The notes under the pieces: generated by a model
Seen by the model: only the letters and a program-made list of their open reading frames with translations
What the model was told of the DNA's origin: nothing
The model's database searches: none
Shown here: positions 6,383 to 46,274 of the stretch, piece by piece
How the letters are laid out: every line of letters begins with the position of its first letter
How positions within the stretch are numbered: position 1 is the stretch's first letter
Source of the DNA: Branchiostoma floridae
Taxonomy: Eukaryota; Chordata; Leptocardii; Amphioxiformes; Branchiostomatidae
Direction of reading: 5' to 3'
DNA length: 64,000 bases
Assembly: GCF_000003815.2 (NCBI RefSeq)
Contig: NC_049981.1
Coordinates: forward strand, 21,664,091-21,728,090
Position numbers and translations under genes: made by a program

Positions 6383-6686
6383 ATGGTAGAAGCAAACTCT
6401 TCTTCGGCCCTGTCTCTGTCGGCTACCTGGTGGAACGAGACGTCTTCGAACGGCACTTTGCGCGGTGGCTCTCATCAGGTCTACGTAACGTCGCTCTACC
6501 TCGCCGCCTACTGCGCCGTATTTCTCCTGAGCATGGTCGGTAATGTTGCCGTGGTAATCATGGTATTGAAAATATCGAAGAACGGAGGGACTCGAGCTTG
6601 TTGTTTCATTTTCAACCTGGTCATGTGCGACCTTTTAGTAGGGATATTCTGCGTACCTTTCACGCTGATACAGGACCTTTTGACGG
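6383..6686 (+). CDS. GPCR exon 1: N-terminus, TM1, TM2
   Basis: The first in-frame ATG is at 6383 and gives a short N-tail with three N-x-S/T sites and no signal peptide, as usual for this receptor class. TM1 spans roughly residues 34-62 with the GN pair at 53-54. TM2 spans about 72-98 with D83. The exon ends ACGG before GTAAGG at 6687, leaving one base of codon 102. The frame runs open upstream to 6230 but has no earlier ATG, so the 6383 start is preferred. Confidence 0.9.
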
Positions 6687-9600
6687 GTAAGGACTGACTC
6701 TATTGTAATTATCATTACATTGACTGCTGGTATTTAGGAGAACCTTTTAGAATGATTCTGTATCCGATAGACAAAGCCAATGTGGCTGAAATATTGCCAG
6801 ACGTTAGAACGATGTATAGGGCTCGATGCCGGTCCTAAAACGTACACGGAAATGCAATTTCCTGTGTGTCAGAGCGAGTGATCATCAGTGGACATGGAGC
6901 ATCAACGGGCTTGCTTATCAGGCAATCCTTAGCTTACGTAATCAAGCCAGTATGCTGCTACTAAATGGGGATCCTATGGGCGTAGAGACATACTAAGAAA
7001 TACATGATAAGGGTGACTGAAGTACAGGATAATCGGGTGTAATTGGGAAAATCTATGTAGTTTGAAGCAAGTTTGTTACTTTACATGATGAATTTATGTA
7101 TACTGTTAAAGCTGAACCATGGGCCTAATCTAACGTGTCAACACAATCTGTCACCATCGGCGATATTTATACAGGTGCTTAGTTCATGTCCATACGCTCG
7201 CACCACTGGCACCAACTGCCGCAGCCCGGAACAGAATATGATATAATACGCTGGCTACCAATACTCATTAGAGCGTTGAAATTAGTTTTGCACACATTCA
7301 TCAATTCGTTCTGTCACGTCCCACAGACGGCGGGCTGGCAGATCTGATGTGCAAGATGACGTCAACAGTCCAGGGCATCGCCGTCTGTTGTTCTGTGTTT
7401 ACTCTAACAACCGTCGCCATCCTAAGGTAACCGACTCATTTTTTTTCAAATCTACGAGACAAATTATGACGTTAATTCGGGTAAATTTTGTTGGAATCCC
7501 TCTTGTGCGTAAGGAACTTTCCAATCATATTTTTGTGCTGTCAAATAACCTTAGAGTAATATTTTACGATGGCCCCAAAGGGCCCCCAGGGGATAGGTAC
7601 CGTTTCAAATGTTCTAAATGAAAGGCGATGTTCAAGTTGGGTTTCTGGATCAGCTGGATGTAAGAAAAATGAGAATTGAAGTTTACGAAACGCCTAATTT
7701 TTTGCTAATAAGACGTACCGCTGTGTCCACGACGAAAAACGAAACCATGAGCATTAACGAGGGAGTAGACGTTGTCGTCTTAGTCAGATGCGCAATAACT
7801 CATCGAGATATCAATATTGATCTTCAATTTCTTGGGCAGATGTTTTCTTTTTCTTTTTTACATTTGTATTCTTTTAGACAATATGTATCATTGTCCTCTA
7901 GAGATGATGGTAACCCTCTGGTGTGTATATTGTATTAGATATCATATTTTATGTTCTTATAGATATTGTTAATAAGTTGATAACATTACCCCAGAACTGG
8001 ATTCTCTCATGACAATGGAGGCGTCTCTTACAAGATCTTGATATAAGCCCCCCCCCCCTCCCGAACATTTAGTCTATTGTGATTTTTATTTCATGGTCGG
8101 AAGCGAGAGTCGATTTGTGTATTCCCATGAATTTGTATTCAATTGTTTATCTTTATGGCTCAGTATGCAATTAGCGCACCAGAGGAAACATCAAATCCAT
8201 TTCTTTCCAATCTAAATATAATGATAACAAATCTATTTTACCAGGGCGCAGTCAAGCAATACTACTGCCAATCCCATCAAATAATATGTTCAGCAATAAC
8301 ATTCTGTGCAATATTCAAATGGAATTCAATTTCTACAACTTGATAAAAAACGGAGATTTACTTTTTGACATTTCAAGTGACATCCATCACTCTTCTTCAG
8401 CGTCGCTAAAAGAAGAGTGATGCTGAAGAAGAGTGGTAGGTGTCACTCGAAACGTCCGGAAGTAAATATCCGTTTTTAATCAACTGTAGAGATTGAATTA
8501 TATTTGGATATTGTTTTCCTGGACGTCTAACCATCATAGATGTATTCTGTACAATGGTCTGAAAACCAACACCTCAAAGCATCTGAACAAGACACAGTGA
8601 AATCAAATCTCTAAGCGGCCAGTATATGTGGGCAGGCCCAAAGGCTGTCAGAAAGATTTAGGACCGCAGAAAAATTGCCGGATCTCTCTGCCAGTTGTCC
8701 TGTATCACCTGAAATATGAAGGTCTGCAAAGTTAATATCCAGCGGCTTTGCCACCTTTGACTTCTAGTGGGGCAATAAAGAAGGGCTCAAAGTGGAAGAT
8801 GCCGGCCATAAACTTTCCTCAAGTCCATCATGGCCACCTCAGGTCGGTGGTGAAAAGGTCATAGCTTCAATTTCACACCTTAGGACCTTTGGTGCTTTGA
8901 AACTACACGCGCTGGCCTCAGGCCCTGTTGTAGCCTGACTTATTTGCTGTTAGGTGATTGGAGACACAAGACTGTTTTGTCTGATCAAAGCTGATTGGAT
9001 TTTAAAGGGTTTTGTGGGTCAACGCCTGCCGGACACGTTTTCAGCTCTTTTCATTGTTCACAGGTTTATTGTATTTTAGAACTGAATGGTTGTTCTAATC
9101 TGCAACAGACAATATAAATGTTCAAATAACGTCTAATACAATGCCGAAGAGTTATGCCAAAAAGCAGTTACTCCAGCAACTGGATATGATTTTGGAAAAC
9201 CATATCCAGTTGCTTGACTAACTGCCTTTTGGCATATCTTATTACCTGGATGTCTAATCTTCATCAACAAACACTGATGCGTACTATTGAAGGTTAGCTG
9301 TCATGCATTTTGTTCATTTTACCTTTTCCAAGAAAATTTTTCTATACCGTTTATCAGATGTCAAAATCAAGTCGCTGGTTTATTATGTTAACCATTCTGC
9401 TGACAACCTGATTTGGGTTTGGCGGATTGTTGAGTACAGGGCAGCGTAAAAAGATATCTGTATTCTGTGTAAAGACTACACGATTTTGACATGTCAGACC
9501 TCCATCAAATAAATAAGATAGACAAGGTAAACTACCTTAATTACGAACAGTAGAATTAAAAGTCCTTCTTGCCCAAATCTATATAAAATGCATAATACTG

Positions 9601-12600
9601 TCCGCCTCAAAATTACTAGAATAATACTGTCCGCCTCAAAATAATACTGTCCGCCTCAAAATTACTAGAATAGTTAGGGTTAGGGTTAGGGTTAGGGACC
9701 CTTCGTATGAATAATATTGTCATTATTATGTATCACTAAGGACAGACAGATGTATAAATATCACTTATTTTACCAAACAAACAAATAAACTTCTTGTAAT
9801 GATACCCACTTAAAAAAGAATTTTCCAAAGAATTCTTCAAATCACTGTCGAATTTGCATGTTATGATTGGCATAATTTGCATCTTCTTATCTGCACCTAA
9901 CCCACATACAAGCGAAATTATGAAAACTATCCATCTTTCCCATAACTATATGAGGACAGAGTGTAAAGGTCATTATTAAACCACTTCATATCCTCTGCAA
10001 CTGAAGTGAAACCTTATGACATGAGGCCCACTGCGCTGTGATCGTGTCACGATCGACAGGAATTTGGCCAGTATTCAAGCGGCAAAAGGCCATGGTGATG
10101 TGACTTTGCCGATTCATTTTTCGTCAAACGGATTTTGCTGTTTTAGGGCAAGAATCGTGATATCGTGGTATAATGAGTACTCACTTATAAGGAATTCGAA
10201 TATATCATAACCCCATAAAACATTTTACATATCAATTCATTAGTTAGGACAAACCTGTTCTTAAACTGGATCTCTTTTGCATATCAATTCACAGCTAGGA
10301 TCTTTTAAACCCTATCCAACAAGATTTCTCATGGATCACTGACGAAAAACAGCGGATGTTGTCTGAAATGTCTGACCGTTTCCAAAATCATATCCAGTTG
10401 GTTGAGTAACTGCTTTTTGGCGTTTAACATTTTACATAGATCCTCGTGTTTCTTGTTTAATTGTAGCTCATTAATTATGCCTACATTAATCAAGCTTTGA
10501 TTAGCATGTTTTCATTGGTCACTTCCTGCCTATACCGAGAACGTGGCTAGTACATGTGGAAATCATAAAGTCACAAACAGGCAGATAGACAATTCAAAAA
10601 CAATACCTCCCTGTGGACTAATGGGCCCTTCCATTGACCCTATGACCTCTATCTTCTGACAGTTGTCACAAAAGATTGATACGTCACTAACTCGGAACGC
10701 CACTCCTCCTGTCAACTCCCCTACTCTGACCTATACTTTCTGTCACATTGCTGTGAAGATGACTAGCATATTGAACATGCATGAAAAGAAAACACAGACT
10801 AATAGTAACAGCACGGTAAAAAAACATTGGGACACTTATCAGGGCATTTTTTGCATATTCAATTATGCTAGAGAGGATACAGCCAGAAATTAGATTTAGA
10901 ATTAGAAAAAAAATCACGAAGGTAAAGGTTTGTTGAATTTTTTTTCTCGGTGGGTACCGCAGCCTTCGCCTTCATGCATGACTTCGTATGAAGACATCGC
11001 ATTTCATACAGAAATTGTGTTCTGTTGCAATACTAATGGAAGTTGCTAAATATGGATATTGACCTTCTCAAAACCTATCCATGTACTAAATATCATCGCA
11101 GTCCATATGCAGCCTGACCTCTCGAGTCAAGCTCACCAAAGTATGCAGTAACACAGAAAAATTAGTAAGAAGAATAGTGAGGAAGAACAATATCAATATT
11201 GATGTCCTGTTACTATGTTTCGATCTTTCCAAAATATAGTTTGGAAAGGAAACTATAACTACCGGTAATCCGCAGGTAACATTATCCAAGAGGAACAGAA
11301 ATATTCAAAACAAGAGCTCAGAGACCCCATACCTCCATGGAATATGTAGCTATCTTGTCTCACAGATTATGAAATGATTTTGACTAAATCTATCGTTTTA
11401 AATGATTGTCTTCTCTATCAAAATTACATAGTGAGAAAGTCATTTTTGCAGAATTTCATCGTGAATTATGCACACGACTTGAAATTAACATAATCTATGC
11501 ACACCTCCAACTGACTTACTTTGTCACAAGAAAGTAACTCCCTTCACTTAGGGATTATGACACTTTCGTATTAACTATGCGAATTGATGCTCATTTGTCT
11601 AAGTTGCATCTAATTTTGTACATCTCTAGTTATCCTATTTACCCTGCCCGAAAGATTTTAAGATTTTCAAAAAAGCCTCAGCAAGCAACAAGGAGGCCCA
11701 AACCTATATTTTTCTTTCTAAAATCGAAATCAACCAAAACAATCAACACCACAGCATTACCAGGCGAAAGACACATAAACTTTTTAAAGTTTATGTGTCT
11801 AAAAGTAGTGCCCCAGTACCAAAGAATAGTGACAAGGAGGCTTTGGTCATGCACCACCTATGACCTCCCCCATGTACTGTCCGTCCAATCGTTTGTAAGC
11901 TATGCTGGGCAAAAATGTCCGGAAACGCAGACAAAAACGCCAAAAACAATACCTCCATTTTCAATGAGGTAACAAGAGTTGAAATGACCATTTCATCTGC
12001 TAAGACAAGTTGGACTTCAGCCTTTTCAGCATCATATATCTGAATTGCTTGATATTTCGGCTCTGTTGAAAGCTTTCTGCGACCACCAGCAGTTTACAAT
12101 GAAAACGTCGTCAGCATCGATGTACATAATCCATTTACAGCCAGGCTGCGGCAAAAAGTGTGGGTAATCTATGACTCTTTTGTTGCGACCGGACTTCGCT
12201 TGAATTCATATATTGAATGAATTCGCCTCGCAGCAGCGGCCTCGTATCAATCAAAAGTCCCAAATTATCGATTTTTTTTAGATCGCACCACCCACACCGT
12301 GTTTGGATAACAAAGAAAGTAATGTTACCTGTATTGGGCGATTGGGCTTCCGATTTTCTTTCAATTCATGCATCATCGTTATATATTCTTTAAACCGCAA
12401 TTATTTTCTGATAGAGAAATTTGAGATACGACGTGCAACGATCAAGACATTCTCTTCCGTGCAATTCATGTTAACTTACATGGTTTCAGAGAAAGTAAGA
12501 ATAACTAATCTAAGAATTAGTGATTAAGTCCAGTTATGTGAAATTGAGACGTTAATGATATTGAAATACATTGTTCGTTTATTTTTTTCACGATTTACTA

Positions 12601-13862
12601 CACCATGGATGACAGCCATATCTTATTCCAGTCATGATTTTGCCATAGAACAAAGAGTTTGCCAATTTTGTACCTCATACATGGTAGAAGATGAAGTGCA
12701 CTTCACTGTTGATTGCGACATGTATGTCAATGATAGAAATACTCTATTTAGTTATATAGAAAGTAGATTCCCTCATTTTAGACATATGAGTAGCACTGAC
12801 AAGTTTATATTTCTCATGCGTTTTGACAAACCGACAATAGCTAAACCCATAACAGTCCTACATTTTCACCATTACTAAGAAGCGAGCAGAAGCCGAACTT
12901 TTGTGTTAGACTAGATTTGTGATACTTTATATCTTGACTTGTTGTGACCTGTACTTAGCTCGGTTGGGCAAAACTGTACAATAAAGGTCTTCATTCATTC
13001 ATTCATATCTTCCAGGTATAGATGGAGGGACCATCAACAACAAATGGAGATATCAGGGACCACAGTTCTCGTCGTGTCAATCGCTATGTGGGTCGTGGCC
13101 GTTCTTTTCTCCTCACCCGAACTCGTGGTGCGAAGAACTATTCAACCCGACCCAGAAGTAGGAGGTAAACCAGCATGTGTCGATGTTTGGCCGTCATCGC
13201 AGCTGAAAATGGTCTACAAGGGTTTTCTGTTCGCATTGTGCTTTCTCGGACCATTTTTTGTCATCGGATACCTATGGGTGACTGTTGGAATTAAAACGTG
13301 CTGCGCATCCAGAGAGCCGCAACGAGATGTTGTCATCGAACGCAGCCACTCCCCGAGTGCCACTCCAACCAGACGAAAGGGAACCAAGTATTTCCGTATG
13401 ATGAAAGTCATCGTCGCCATCTTCTGTTTTCTATGGCTGCCACTTTACGTTAGCTGGACCCTGGAAGCGTACGGCGACTATTCCTGGTTTCTGAAAGAAA
13501 AGGTAAAAGGTTATATTTATCCAATTGCCCTGTGGACTGCCTTTAGCAATAGCTTGATCAATCCGTTCATATGCGGGTACTACATCAAGAACGTGGGTAA
13601 AACGTGCAGGAAGAAGCCTCGGAGAAGTCGGCAGGCCCGGAAAAACTGGGAAAGTTCAATATCTTCCAACAACTCCAGCTCGGACGGAAAACTCGGGCAT
13701 ATTGAGCTGAATTCCGTATGCGGCTCGACGGAAAAGCCCGACGATGTTCGCGACCGGATCCTGGTGCTACCGACCGACAAAGATGTCAGCCTAGACCCGG
13801 TCATGCGGTTACCGACCGACTGCAGCACGGAACCGTTAACGCGAACAGAAGTGAAGGAGTGA
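6383..13862 (+). CDS. Neuropeptide FF/RFamide receptor-like GPCR, three exons
   Basis: The CDS is join(6383..6686,7327..7426,13016..13862) and encodes 416 residues. The product is a rhodopsin-class (beta group) seven-helix receptor of the plasma membrane. Family resemblance is to neuropeptide FF and related RFamide receptors: DLLVGIFC in TM2, MCK then VQGI and SVFTL in TM3, a WP pair in loop 2, FLWLP in TM6, and a YP..LW.AF.NS run before NPF in TM7. Conserved points are N54 in TM1, D83 in TM2, C110 and C189 for the loop disulphide, W160 in TM4, P214 in TM5, and W275/P277 in TM6. N5, N18 and N23 are N-glycosylation sequons. Two motifs are altered: L134 replaces the acidic residue of DRY, and C321 replaces the tyrosine of NPxxY. 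The ligand is unknown. The peptide-receptor assignment is firm; the exact subfamily is inference. Confidence 0.9.
6687..7326 (+). other. GPCR intron 1
   Basis: This 640 bp intron starts with GTAAGG and ends with CCACAG. It interrupts codon 102 after its first base, in extracellular loop 1. I see no repeat or secondary gene inside it. Confidence 0.85.
7327..7426 (+). CDS. GPCR exon 2: loop 1 and TM3
   Basis: This 100 bp exon is flanked by CACAG and GTAACC. It encodes D102 to the first two bases of R135: loop 1, C110 for the disulphide, and TM3 with VQGIAV and SVFTL. TM3 closes AILR, so the position that is D or E in nearly all family members is L134, from a CTA codon. The tryptophan usually seen in loop 1 (GWPF) is also absent. 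The exon boundary splits the arginine codon of the DRY motif, a common intron site in peptide GPCRs. Confidence 0.9.
8341..8482. repeat. Foldback MITE, 142 bp
   Basis: The ends are TGATAAAAAACGG and CCGTTTTTAATCA. The arms are imperfect inverted repeats of nearly 70 bases meeting near 8408, and contain AAGAAGAGTG / CACTCTTCTT. A partial copy at about 59049-59122 shares ACGGAGATTTACTTT and the GTGACATCCATCACTC word. This non-autonomous element has no coding capacity. Confidence 0.8.
9154..9235. repeat. MITE family A, hairpin form
   Basis: Inverted arms (ATGCCAAAAAGCAGTTACT ... AACTGCCTTTTGGCAT) surround the core CAACTGGATATGATTTTGG. Other copies are at 10336-10422, 14344-14515, 59943-60038 and 62877-63035. 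This copy and the one near 60 kb also share the right flank word ATTACCTGGATGTCTA, so the true element extends past the hairpin. Confidence 0.8.
9585..9672 (+). repeat. Short tandem repeat with ATACTGTCCGCCTCAAAA unit
   Basis: The word ATACTGTCCGCCTCAAAA occurs three times in about 75 bases. ATTACTAGAATA follows two of the copies and is missing from the other, so two unit lengths alternate. The array runs directly into the telomeric hexamers that follow. Confidence 0.8.
9673..9697 (+). repeat. Interstitial telomeric repeat, four TTAGGG units
   Basis: There are four exact GTTAGG-phase hexamers at 9673-9697, inside intron 2. This is the metazoan telomere unit. At this length it may be a break-repair scar or part of a repeat. 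It is not a chromosome end, since unique sequence continues on both sides. Confidence 0.85.
10336..10422 (-). repeat. MITE family A fragment
   Basis: Reading the opposite strand gives the family A order: GCCAAAAAGCAGTTACT, the ATATGATTTTGGAAACGG core, GTCAGAC, and CGTCAGTGAT. The left half is intact and the far end is truncated. Confidence 0.7.
12540..13010 (+). mobile_element. LINE 3' remnant with ATTC-repeat tail
   Basis: A frame at 12555-12878 ends in a CxxC ... HxxxxC cluster (RVCQFC, then EDEVHFTVDC and Y..DR), typical of the C-terminal tail of non-LTR retrotransposon reverse transcriptases. A short 3' UTR follows, with AATAAA at about 12980 and a tail of ATTC repeats ending near 13006. 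The reverse transcriptase and endonuclease domains are absent, so this is a 5'-truncated dead copy in the same orientation as the GPCR. Its tail sits immediately before the exon 3 acceptor. Confidence 0.7.
13016..13862 (+). CDS. GPCR exon 3: TM4-TM7 and C-tail
   Basis: The acceptor is TTCCAG at 13010-13015. The first base completes R135, then YRWRDH follows. TM4 (about 147-168, W160), loop 2 with C189, TM5 (about 202-226, P214), TM6 (about 263-284, FLWLP) and TM7 (about 302-324) are all here. TM7 ends NPFICGYY, so the NPxxY tyrosine is cysteine 321. Helix 8 carries a candidate palmitoylated cysteine (KTCRKK). The tail is serine-rich (SSISSNNSSS) and ends TEVKE before TGA at 13860. Intracellular loop 3 is of moderate length. 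Confidence 0.92.
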
Positions 13863-14103: not shown

Positions 14104-14109
14104 AATAAA
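14104..14109 (+). terminator. AATAAA poly(A) signal of the GPCR gene
   Basis: This is the first AATAAA downstream of the stop codon, about 240 bases after TGA, in AT-rich DNA. It gives a plausible 3' UTR length. No transcript evidence is available. Confidence 0.5.
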
Positions 14110-42555: not shown

Positions 42556-44307
42556 ATCAATGCCCTTGTTCTGACACACAATATTGTATCTTTTTCTTGC
42601 CTATGGAAAGTGTTGTTTTCCCATGCCAGGTGTTGGTAAGTCCACAATATGTAAGCCGGATGTAAAACCTCGGGCTTGACATTTGTTCGAATAATGCCTG
42701 AGGACCGAGGGCACAAATGACCCGTCCTCCAGCCAAGCATTATGATTGAAACTTCTACCCGGAAGGTCACGAGGTATTCGTATAGGATTCGTGAGATCAA
42801 ACCGTTCCGGGCTTCAGTAACGTTATGATATGATATATTTTCATCACTAAGGTCGCCTGTGAGTTACGATGTAATATCAAGATGTAGTGGGGCAGATAAC
42901 ATCAAATTTTGGAGGAATCTTTCACTTTGTGATACAAGCACCAAACTTGGTACAGATACTCATTGGACTTTACTGTTTTGAAAAAGTACGCGGGCCACTT
43001 GATTTGACTTTCGGCGCCCCCTAGCGGCGCGTTTTGGTACTGCAGCAGACCTTCCGGGCTTTGAATCTCCTGTTCTAAACATGCTACAGTCATGATTTTT
43101 ATGTGGTAGAAAGCTGGTAGGGTAAGGAACAAGTGACGTAAGTTTGGTTTCCCTAGCGGCTTGTGTTGGAACTACAGCGGCGTTTTTTTGCCGCTGCCGA
43201 ATTGCCCTAGGGGCGCTTTTTGGTACTGCAGCAGACCTTCCGGACTTTGTATCTCCTGTTCTAGACATTCTACAGTCATGATTTTTATGTGGTAGGAAGC
43301 TGTTGGAGTAAGGACGAAGTGATGTAAGTTTGGTCTCCCTAGCAGCTTGCGTTGGAACTGCAGCAACGTTTTTTTGCCGCTGACGAATGTGAAGCGGAAC
43401 AACTCCGGACGTTTGAAATGTCCAAAAGTAGGTTCTTGACTATGGGAAAGCTAAATGTTCAACTCTAATTGTGATACAAGCGCCAAACTTAGTACAAATA
43501 CTCATGTGATACTACTCTTTTGAAAAAGTACGCGGGCCACTTGATTTGACTTTTGGCGCCCCCTAGGGGCGCTTTTTGGTACTGCAGCAGACCTTCCGGG
43601 CTTTGTATCTCCTGTTTTAAACATGCGGTATCTCCTGTTTTAAACATACAGTCATGATAAAATATTTCGTCACAATATGTGCTAGTTTGTCTATAATTCT
43701 CACCATCTGTTGCTCACAAAAGTATTTAAAAAAAGCTCCTTAGAAGGTTGAGAGGTGACCATTTAGCTTTCCCATAGTCAAAAACCCACTTTTAGACATT
43801 TTAAACGTCCGAAGTTGTTCCGCTTCGAATTCGGCAGCGGCAAAAACGCCCCTGTAGTTCCAACGCAAGTTCCTAGGGAGACCACTTACGTCACTTCTTC
43901 CTTGCACCAACAGCTTTCCACCACATAAAAATCATGACTGTAGCATGTTTCGAACAGGAGATACAAAGCCCGGAAGGTCTTCTGCAGTACCAACAAGAGT
44001 TCGTAGACCTCAGGCCTGCATGCGGCAAAAAACGCCGCTGCAGTTCCAACGCAAGCTGCTAGGGAAACCAATCTTACATCACTTCGTCCTTACGCTAACA
44101 GCTTTCTACCACATAAAAATTATGACTGTAGCATGTCTAGAACAGGAGATACAAAGTCCGGAAGGTCTGCTGCAGTACCAAAAAGCGCCCCTAGGGCAAT
44201 TCGGCAGCGGCAAAAAAATGCCTCTGTAGTTCCAACGCAAGCCGCTAAGGAAACCAAACTTACGGCACTTGTTCCTTACCCTACCAGCTTTCTACCACAT
44301 AAAAATC

Positions 44308-44407
44308 NNNNNNNNNNNNNNNNNNNNNNNNNNNNNNNNNNNNNNNNNNNNNNNNNNNNNNNNNNNNNNNNNNNNNNNNNNNNNNNNNNNNNNNNNNNNN
44401 NNNNNNN
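44308..44407. other. Assembly gap of 100 N
   Basis: A run of N of round length, placed inside the repetitive foldback element. The true length of the missing sequence is unknown. Confidence 0.99.
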
Positions 44408-44589
44408 ATATATCATCTGGTACACTCCCGCCATCTGGCACACCGTAAGACAGGGGATACAAAGTAACCTGATACATTGAAGGTTGCCCCAGGCCAGATG
44501 ATGGTTCTACACCCAACCGTAATCTGTTTTCAGAACCAAGCAGATATTGGGAGGATGCCCCAACCACACCAAAACAGGGTCAACCTATA

Positions 44590-45180
44590 CAGTATCAAGT
44601 TCAAGCACTAGGAGGCCCAAAATCAAACCTCACCACCAGGACACCACCAACAACTCACGTACCAAATAGCAACACAATGGCACCTTGCGTTCCGGAGATA
44701 CAGCGCACGCCCCGTGCCCGCACAAAAGGTAACCTAAAATGTCAAGTTCAAGCACGAAGGGCGCCAAAATCAAAATTGAGAATTATTCAGCCACCGCCGA
44801 CACATGTGCCAAATATCATCGCGCCCGCACCAACCGTTCAGAAGATATAACTCCGGAAATACCCCTCCCGGACACAAAATTCGACCTGCCGCGTCAAGTT
44901 CAAACGCGACAAGGCCCAAAGTCAATCCTAGGCAACAGGCAACAACTTCCCACCCATGCACCAAAAATTGTCGCAATGGTGCGTATCGTTCCGGACACAC
45001 AGCGCCAAAAGTGCCCCCAAAACACCAAAAATGCCACCTGCAATGTCAAGTTCAAGCGCCAGGAGGCCCAAAATCAAACCTGAGTGTCAAGCCACCACCC
45101 CCAACTTACGTACCAAAAATCGTCGTGCTCGCACCATCCTTTCTCGAGATACAGCGCCCTAAATCCCCAGCTTCCAAATT
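44590..45180 (+). repeat. Internal minisatellite of the foldback element
   Basis: About four units of 150-160 bases begin near 44595, 44740, 44890 and 45045. Each has TCAAGTTCAAGC, a GGCCCAAAATCAAA-type word, CACC.CCAACTCACGTACCAAA, then a GGAGATACAGCGC word. The GAGATACA and GTACCAAA words suggest these are diverged relatives of the arm unit. Confidence 0.75.
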
Positions 45181-46274
45181 TTCCCACGCCCGTGAAAACC
45201 ATACCTGCATACATGCAGGTAAAAAGCGCCCTTAGGAGCAATTTGGCAGCGGCAAAAAACGCCGCTGCAGTTCCAACGCAAGCTGCTAGGGAAACCAAAC
45301 TTACATCACTTCGTCCTTACGCTAACAGCTTTATACCACATAAAAATCATGACTGTAGCTTGTTTCAAACAGGAGATACAAAGCCCGAAAAGTCTACTGC
45401 AGTACCAAAAAGCGCCCCTAGGGCAATTCGGCAGCGGCAAAAAAAAAACGCTGCTGTAGTTCCAACGCAAGCAGCTAGGGAAACCAAACTTACGTCACTT
45501 CTTCCTTACCCTACCAGCTTTCTACCACAGAACAATCATGACTGTAGCATGTTTAGAACAGGAGATACAAAGCCCGGAAGGTCTGCTGCAGTACCAAAAG
45601 GCGCCGCTAGGGGGCACCAAAAGTCAAATAAAGTGGCCCGCGTACTTTTTCAAAACAGTAAAGTCTAATGAGTATCTGTACTAAGTTTGGTGCTTGTATC
45701 ACAATTGTAGTTGAACATTTAGCTGTCCCATACTTTTAGACATTTTAAACATTCGGAGTTGTTCCGCTTCAAATTCGGCAGCGGCAAAAAAAACGCCCCT
45801 GCAGTTCCAACGCAAGCTGCTAGGGAGACAAAACTTACGTCACTTCATCCTTACTACAACAGCTTTCTACCACATAAAAACTATGACTGTAGCATGTCTA
45901 GAACAGGAGATAGAAAGTCCGGAAGGTCTGCTGCAGTACCAAAAAGCGCCCCTAGGGCAATTCGGCAGCGGCAAAAAAATGCCTCTGTAGTTCCAACGCA
46001 AGCCGCTAAGGAAACCAAACTTACGTCACTTGTTCCTTACCCTACCAGCTTTCTACCACATAAAAATCATGACTGTAGCATGTTTAGAACCAGAGATACA
46101 AAGCCCGGAAGGTCTGCTGCAGTACCAAAAGGCGCCGCTAGGGGGCGCCAAAAGTCAAATCAAATGGCCCGCGTACTTTTTCAAAACAGTAAAGTCTAAT
46201 GAGTATCTGTACCAAGTTTGGTGCTTGTATCACAAAGTGAAAGATTTTTTCAGTTATCTGCCCCACTAATGGGG

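Follow-up and report, generated by a model that had tools for sequence, protein, structure and literature searches.

The locus described here raises the question of whether a seven-helix receptor that has lost the residues by which receptors of its class are switched on can still be a maintained protein and, if so, of what kind. The window, by which we mean the whole 64,000-nucleotide stretch analyzed (C3:21664091-21728090 of a Branchiostoma floridae genome of 513 Mb in 431 contigs), contains a gene for a G-protein-coupled receptor (GPCR) related to the neuropeptide FF (NPFF) receptors, in which both the DRY and the NPxxY activation motifs are altered. Together with two paralogues on the same contig it forms a clade that we interpret, with rather more conviction than doubt, as an old subfamily of ligand-binding receptors that may have been freed from G-protein signaling and so become decoy-like. 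Gene structure, residue changes, clade membership, the contrast in evolutionary rate between the two halves of the proteins and the intactness of their exons were obtained directly; from these we infer expression at the cell surface, binding of a peptide and silence toward G proteins.

Gene structure and altered switch residues

The receptor gene lies on the forward strand in three exons with standard GT/AG sites and encodes 416 residues. Exon 1 (6383..6686) carries the start codon, the sequons N5, N18 and N23, transmembrane helix (TM) 1, intracellular loop (ICL) 1 and TM2, and ends in phase 1 at the donor GTAAGG; exon 2 (7327..7426, 100 nt) encodes extracellular loop (ECL) 1, C3.25 and TM3 and breaks off two bases into the Arg3.50 codon; exon 3 (13016..13862) supplies the remainder of that codon, ICL2, TM4 to TM7, helix 8, a Ser-rich C-tail and the stop codon. 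The junctions thus fall in phase 1 after TM2 and in phase 2 inside the Arg3.50 codon. A preliminary description of this DNA had placed the start of the gene at 7327, which is the start of exon 2, and exon 1 lay outside its range. Around the start codon, positions -3 and +4 are both G; no Met precedes it in the open frame, and a possible polyadenylation signal (AATAAA, 14104..14109) occurs about 240 bases 3' of the stop codon. G+C content at third codon positions is 0.595, as against approximately 0.40 in flanks and introns.

The encoded protein is a class A (rhodopsin-type) GPCR. It matches Pfam 7tm_1 with E = 1.4e-36 and, in a generic numbering set against NPFFR1, NPFFR2, NPY1R and TACR1, has all of the class A anchors N1.50, D2.50, R3.50, W4.50, P5.50, P6.50 and P7.50; the preliminary claim of a real gene holds. 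Its nearest relatives in the PDB are neuropeptide FF receptors 1 and 2 (34 and 33% identity), to which the region from TM3 to TM4 aligns without gaps, as the earlier argument against a missing exon had supposed. The TM6 sequence FLWLP and the disulphide cysteines C110 and C189 are likewise present, as are the three sequons.

The two motif changes reported earlier, DRY to LRY and NPxxY to NPxxC, are confirmed by reading frames, exon phases and splice sites: L134-R135-Y136 occupies 3.49-3.51 and N317-P-F-I-C321 occupies 7.49-7.53. Leu134 (3.49) is encoded in exon 2 by CTA (7422..7424) and Cys321 (7.53) in exon 3 by TGC (13572..13574); in addition Tyr5.58 is replaced by Trp222 (TGG, 13275..13277), so that none of the class A switches D/E3.49, Y5.58 and Y7.53 is in place (L, W and C, respectively). 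These changes do not expel the gene from class A, because class A control genes, described below, show exceptions too. The receptor had been regarded as otherwise complete, a statement that has to be amended for the cytoplasmic side, where 3.54 is Arg (hydrophobic elsewhere), Pro3.57 has become Gln, Asn2.40 Cys, Asn8.47 Ile and Phe8.50 Val. Retained are C3.25, S3.39, R3.50, F6.44, W6.48, P6.50, N7.49 and P7.50. Among positions at which NPFFR1 and NPFFR2 agree, the window gene keeps 25/71 in the inner half and 44/77 in the outer half (Fisher p = 0.009), whereas NPY1R (39/71 inner, 32/77 outer) and TACR1 (34/71 and 23/77) show the opposite trend.

An artefact of the gene model or assembly is scarcely credible as the source of these changes. 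The window does contain a 100-N assembly gap, though far from the gene. A CTA codon is at least two base changes from any Asp or Glu codon, which rules out a single read error at 3.49; TGC is one base change from Tyr, and 7.53 taken alone could be such an error. A missing exon was rejected as well, since the TM3-TM4 length matches and exon 2 is alike throughout the family, being 100 nt long in 42 of 44 readable copies and 97 nt in two. The window proved to contain just a single copy of exon 2, and the single D-R-like donor in intron 2 that might end an alternative exon, at 7592, is not accompanied by TM3 coding. Furthermore, two sister paralogues likewise lack an acid at 3.49 and a Tyr at 7.53, which speaks against both an assembly error and a lone dying gene.

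Three sister genes within a lancelet receptor expansion

A protein search of the genome revealed many NPFFR-like exons, chiefly on contigs C3 and C11, at about 23-50% identity (best 100 candidates scored). This agrees with the available part of a published survey, in which the B. floridae NPFF-receptor group, with 39 sequences, has the top count among the Rhodopsin expansions listed (PMC2246102). Exon-2 loci were located with one 33-residue query; 46 were read and 44 were readable at 3.49, with L106 (sequence passing into assembly N at 3.49) and L122 (another receptor type) left out of the count and L070 corrected by hand. L092 (C3:24008680-24008850, minus strand), a canonical paralogue in which no GT donor was detected by script, was read by eye and apparently has a GC donor in exon 2. 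With the window gene included, 3.49 is acidic in 41/44 copies (Asp 39, Glu 2), and the three exceptions are the window gene (Leu) and two paralogues on its contig (Thr and Cys). Among other exon-3 loci, 7.53 is Tyr in 39 of 40 and Phe in one, and 5.58 is Tyr in 35 of the 36 aligned and Asn in one. Both intron positions of the window gene, with their phases, are shared by the lancelet paralogues.

The first of the two exceptional paralogues, the near neighbor (C3:21604469-21622067, minus strand; exons in L143, L120 and L086), lies approximately 42 kb before the window; its exon 2 and acceptor, in L120, were set by hand. The third sister (C3:28204624-28234361, minus strand; exons in L147, L121 and L062) has its exon 3 about 25 kb from exon 2, order and strand being the sole basis on which its exons were paired. 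In the order window gene, near neighbor, third sister, the switch residues read L/T/C at 3.49, W/H/F at 5.58 and C/S/L at 7.53, positions that in 25 canonical paralogues are D/E in 25, Tyr in 24 and Tyr in 25, respectively. At 3.54 they have R/Q/M, where all 25 canonical paralogues have V/I, with the near neighbor's letters at 3.54 and 3.57 unsure due to an ICL2 three residues longer. All three keep C3.25, S3.39, L3.43, R3.50, W4.50, P5.50, F6.44, W6.48, P6.50, N7.45 and P7.50; in the near neighbor, 1.50 is Asp and 7.49 is Thr, and both this gene and the window gene have one extra residue in ICL1 relative to six other genes set beside them. The sister exons read contain no stop or frameshift and have standard donors and acceptors, the start codons of the two paralogues not having been established. 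As a separate observation, the near neighbor's L086 (C3:21604100-21607000, minus strand) encodes a C-tail rich in Glu and a very long ICL3, estimated by eye at some 200 residues.

A tree of TM3-TM7 was computed from 27 paralogues, the window gene and four PDB-derived reference receptors; of 40 exon-2/exon-3 pairs, six without a scripted exon 3 and seven whose exon 3 lacked TM4 or had a wrong start were excluded. The three sisters form one clade (support 100/99), placed with moderate support (87/95) in a group of 12 lancelet rows within the NPFF-receptor-like expansion, in a tree rooted on two outgroup receptors only and with weak deep forks. They remain together in a tree of the outer half alone (108 columns; 99/95), where their branches are not flagged as long, and when any one of them is left out the remaining two join in quick trees with 96-99 in the SH-aLRT (Shimodaira-Hasegawa approximate likelihood ratio test), although the long-branch warning persists. 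Long-branch attraction as the sole cause of the clade was rejected, the outer-half and leave-one-out trees answering it in part. A genome search with the third sister returned the window gene as best non-self match (E 2.6e-20), and no fourth member of the clade was recognized among the loci read, which are part of those listed. The grouping of the window gene with NPFFR1/2 and the lancelet genes, and not with NPY1R or TACR1, along with its best sequence match and, among lancelet copies, its exon-2 length, indicates that it is NPFF-receptor-like by descent. That part of the earlier assignment to an NPFF/RFamide type therefore stands.

The joint nature of the losses was set against 50 single-exon class A genes of the same genome, 40 of them hand-chosen and the set not a random sample, from which two duplicate loci had been dropped. 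In these controls 3.49 is D/E in 47/49 aligned, 5.58 is Tyr in 35/43 and 7.53 is Tyr in 36/41 (five changed, one of them to Cys); none of the 50 departs at 3.49, 5.58 and 7.53 together. One of these controls, L030 (C3:23992327-23993479), has D3.49 with Ser5.58, Ser7.53, Cys3.51 and Cys8.50.

A large lancelet expansion with an altered DRY motif recalls the lancelet odorant receptors, most of which carry DLY in the part of PMC2764704 available, and the three sisters might by analogy be chemosensory-type receptors in a fast-evolving expansion, acting through another signaling partner. The leading position of the NPFF-receptor group in the list of PMC2246102 could be counted in favor of this idea, which we nevertheless consider most improbable. 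Those odorant receptors, as described, differ in having R3.50 changed with D3.49 and NPxxY kept. Here the joint switch losses are confined to one clade of three, while the other loci read keep D/E3.49 and Y5.58/Y7.53 (one exception each), and the outer halves of the sisters lack the excess of change expected of a diversifying pocket.

Unequal evolution of the inner and outer halves

Tip lengths were computed on a fixed topology for the inner and outer halves separately, with the 25 canonical paralogues as the comparison set. In the inner half the tips of the three sisters measure 1.15, 1.27 and 1.57, the longest among the 28 lancelet rows, versus a canonical median of 0.30 and maximum of 0.97; in the outer half they measure 0.26, 0.46 and 0.42, versus a median of 0.27 and maximum of 0.85. 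Relative to the family median the sister branches are thus 3.9-5.3 times as long in the inner half and 1.0-1.7 times in the outer half. The contrast hardly differs when helix ends and most of ICL2 are dropped (53 columns; 3.19 vs 3.18), and in 100 shuffles of columns between the halves none matched it, the largest value being 2.22. Among family columns at least 85% identical, the three sisters keep 35/69 cells in the inner half and 38/48 in the outer half (Fisher p = 0.002). A signaling side lost and a ligand side more constrained, the pattern of a decoy-like sequence, is what the three genes display.

Could they instead be functionless relics, under relaxed selection and on their way to becoming pseudogenes? 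Long branches and the loss of highly conserved residues would be expected of such genes, and in the window gene a retroelement-like stretch directly adjoins the exon 3 acceptor on its 5' side. Yet the 416 codons of the window gene and the sister exons read are free of stops and frameshifts in spite of inner branches exceeding one change per site, which argues that the proteins were kept for most of their history and that recent decay alone is no explanation. The outer-half branches stay inside the family range, C3.25, W4.50 and the helix prolines are kept, third-position G+C of the window gene is raised above its flanks, and plain drift would not be expected to spare half of one exon. Decay of this kind therefore appears improbable, if less so than a chemosensory role.

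Several observations temper the contrast and weigh against a decoy-like reading of it. Under a richer mixture model the sister outer-half branches are 0.89-0.95, vs a median of 0.56, and of 41 conserved outer columns the near neighbor (L120) keeps 22 and the third sister (L121) 23 (0.54 and 0.56), where the lowest canonical value is 0.58; the outer half of the sisters is accordingly ordinary to moderately fast. The canonical genes L116-L118, L105 and L063 also favor the outer over the inner half, less strongly, and NPFFR2, with an outer tip near zero, has an inner/outer tip ratio greater than that of the window gene. Since canonical genes and NPFFR2 lean likewise, what sets the three sisters apart is the summed size of the contrast and not its direction. 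The longer ICL2 of the near neighbor, which clouds two of the inner positions, the loss in the outer half of acid 6.59 from all three sisters and of H7.39 from two of them (below), and the origin of all paralogue comparisons in one genome count on the same side. Among the canonical genes L119 has a fast inner tip as well (0.95), with Asn at 5.58.

The ligand pocket

In the accessible portions of reports on NPFFR1/2 structures (PMC12069643, PMC13107563), the ligand amide contacts T2.61, Q3.32 and H7.39, and the ligand Arg lies against E45.52 and T5.39; in NPFFR1 it may also contact D6.59, where substitution by Ala led to a loss of affinity. The window gene shares with NPFFR1/2 and the lancelet expansion T2.61, Q3.32, V3.36, Y5.38, L5.42 and an acid at 45.52, and departs from them in T5.39K (Lys203, AAG, 13218..13220), D6.59A (Ala286, GCG, 13467..13469) and H7.39L, so that the full set of RFamide pocket residues is not present. 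Lys at 5.39 is common to the three sisters, where 35 of 36 aligned other exon-3 loci have Thr or Ser and one has Ala; the acidic residue missing at 6.59 from all three is present, as Asp or Glu, in 37 of the 40 exon-3 loci outside the clade. The sisters also have Y6.52, W6.55 and an acid at 6.58 in common, residues found in 11, 7 and 8 of the 25 canonical paralogues, respectively. All three lack Trp23.50, to which we attach little weight, as it is also missing from 16/41 other copies.

Placed beside the kept acid, Lys5.39 could close the site for the ligand Arg. As the Arg sub-pocket is changed in all three sisters, by gain of Lys5.39 and loss of Asp6.59, the ligand is probably no ordinary RFamide and may well be another amidated peptide, which renders doubtful the RFamide ligand implied by the preliminary description. 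One identical new residue at 5.39, in proteins whose inner switches each differ, argues further for selection on ligand binding.

A proposed decoy-like role, or altered signaling

Class A activation provides a frame for the inner-half changes. In the account given in PMC6954041, as far as available, 3.49 holds Arg3.50 in check, and upon activation Tyr7.53 moves its contacts over to 3.43, 3.46 and Arg3.50; in the A2A receptor D3.49N raises basal cyclic AMP eightfold and Y7.53A lowers agonist potency 16-fold, with agonist binding generally preserved in the mutants. In the active state Arg3.50 meets Tyr5.58 (PMC3405870). For the chemokine receptors, the available part of the same study reports an inner-side bias of diverged sites for four of the five decoy groups (DARC, CCBP2, CCRL2, CCRL1 and CXCR7 being the decoys), and for none of five groups of viral receptors, which are often constitutively active (PMC3405870).

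We propose that the sister subfamily arose inside the lancelet NPFF-receptor-like expansion, that its outer half would still fold, bind peptide and be under selection, and that its inner half would have been released from the constraint of G-protein coupling and then changed differently in each sister. The changes take in the restraint at 3.49, the two active-state partners of Arg3.50 (Tyr5.58 and Tyr7.53), conserved positions of ICL2 and the beginning of helix 8; the combined loss of 3.49, 5.58 and 7.53 with 3.54 and 3.57 of ICL2 would most simply abolish coupling while binding could persist. Such a receptor would most likely act as a decoy or scavenger that holds and perhaps internalizes its peptide, or would partner another receptor, without classical signaling.

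The most serious competitor, though in our estimation an unlikely one, is altered or constitutive signaling, in which loss of the acidic 3.49 frees Arg3.50 and coupling proceeds in a non-standard way, as in viral ORF74, which signals with a changed DRY motif (PMC3405870). The A2A D3.49N mutant illustrates the principle, and the retention of R3.50, F6.44 and W6.48 (with L3.43) in all three sisters leaves room for some activation, a point that tells against complete silence. The same must be said of the DLY odorant receptors, still taken as receptors in PMC2764704, which caution that motif loss alone is no proof of silence. On the other hand, Y5.58, the active-state partner of Arg3.50, is lost jointly with Y7.53, whose mutation was so costly in A2A; the sisters share no replacement motif at 3.49, 5.58 or 7.53; inner-half tips unmatched in the lancelet set are unlike a maintained new coupling surface; and the inner-side bias is a feature of chemokine decoys and not, in the groups described, of viral receptors, which favors a decoy over constitutive activity. 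The preliminary description had offered both possibilities, along with arrestin bias, and of its three suggestions it is the decoy that best fits the pattern.

The likeness to chemokine decoys extends to particular positions, in that the DARC group is changed at R3.50, Y3.51, Y5.58, Y7.53 and F8.50 and CCRL2 has Q3.49, as reported in PMC3405870. There are differences as well: those receptors belong to another family with other ligands, R3.50 is changed in DARC and CCBP2 and kept in the sisters, and binding and silence are known for the decoys, the sisters being known from their sequences. Nearer in family and kind of animal are the lancelet PQRFamide receptors, whose R2 gave no response to the three endogenous PQRFamide peptides in the assay reported.

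To our knowledge, seven-helix receptors of the decoy type have been described mainly in the chemokine (PMC3405870) and complement systems of vertebrates, and searches of an open-access library brought up no account of a non-signaling or decoy lancelet NPFF-type receptor. A wider proposal, which we put forward tentatively and with less assurance than the decoy-like reading itself, is that lancelets maintain three peptide-bound, G-protein-silent receptors of neuropeptide type as a decoy or co-receptor system independent of those two, with a shared pocket (Lys5.39 new, Asp6.59 lost, and Tyr6.52, Trp6.55 and acid 6.58 also present in some relatives) adapted to one class of ligand. If true, the split between a kept ligand half and a released signaling half would have arisen in another peptide system, in an invertebrate chordate, and the three genes would serve as a natural test of which residues on the cytoplasmic side can be lost from a class A receptor. 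Similarity-based names such as "NPFF receptor" may then label non-signaling proteins.

Surroundings of the gene

In the 20 kb flanking the window on each side, tblastn at E 1e-3 detected no paralogue, and no relatives were found in viral contigs with the window protein or with an alignment including NPFFR1/2. Scans of the window with Rfam (at gathering thresholds) and for tRNAs gave no matches, and ten other open reading frames (ORFs) of the window, from 30 listed at 110 aa or more, had no Pfam match above the curated cut-off.

Ahead of exon 3, positions 12528-13005 comprise an ORF (12528-12878), after which come AATAAA and then an (ATTC)n tail that ends about 11 bases 5' of the exon 3 acceptor (CATTCATTCATTCATATCTTCCAG); in Pfam the ORF matches DUF7479 alone, under the cut-off. 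In our reading this stretch is probably the 3' terminus of a retroelement that integrated at the splice site, where it may supply or disturb the pyrimidine tract of exon 3. Farther upstream in intron 2 (9620-9697), a 20-bp unit repeated about 2.2 times adjoins approximately four copies of the telomere-type GTTAGG.

Elsewhere in the family, L101 (C3:24632460-24632630) and L102 (C243:54810-54980) have identical exon-2 peptides and splice sites; lying on a chromosome-size and a small contig, respectively, they are possibly an uncollapsed allele of the assembly. Within the window, the assembly gap (44308-44407) is flanked by four arrays of a 186-189-bp tandem unit (43019-46143). Long open frames run through this unit, on the minus strand ahead of the gap and on the plus strand in the part that surrounds and follows it.

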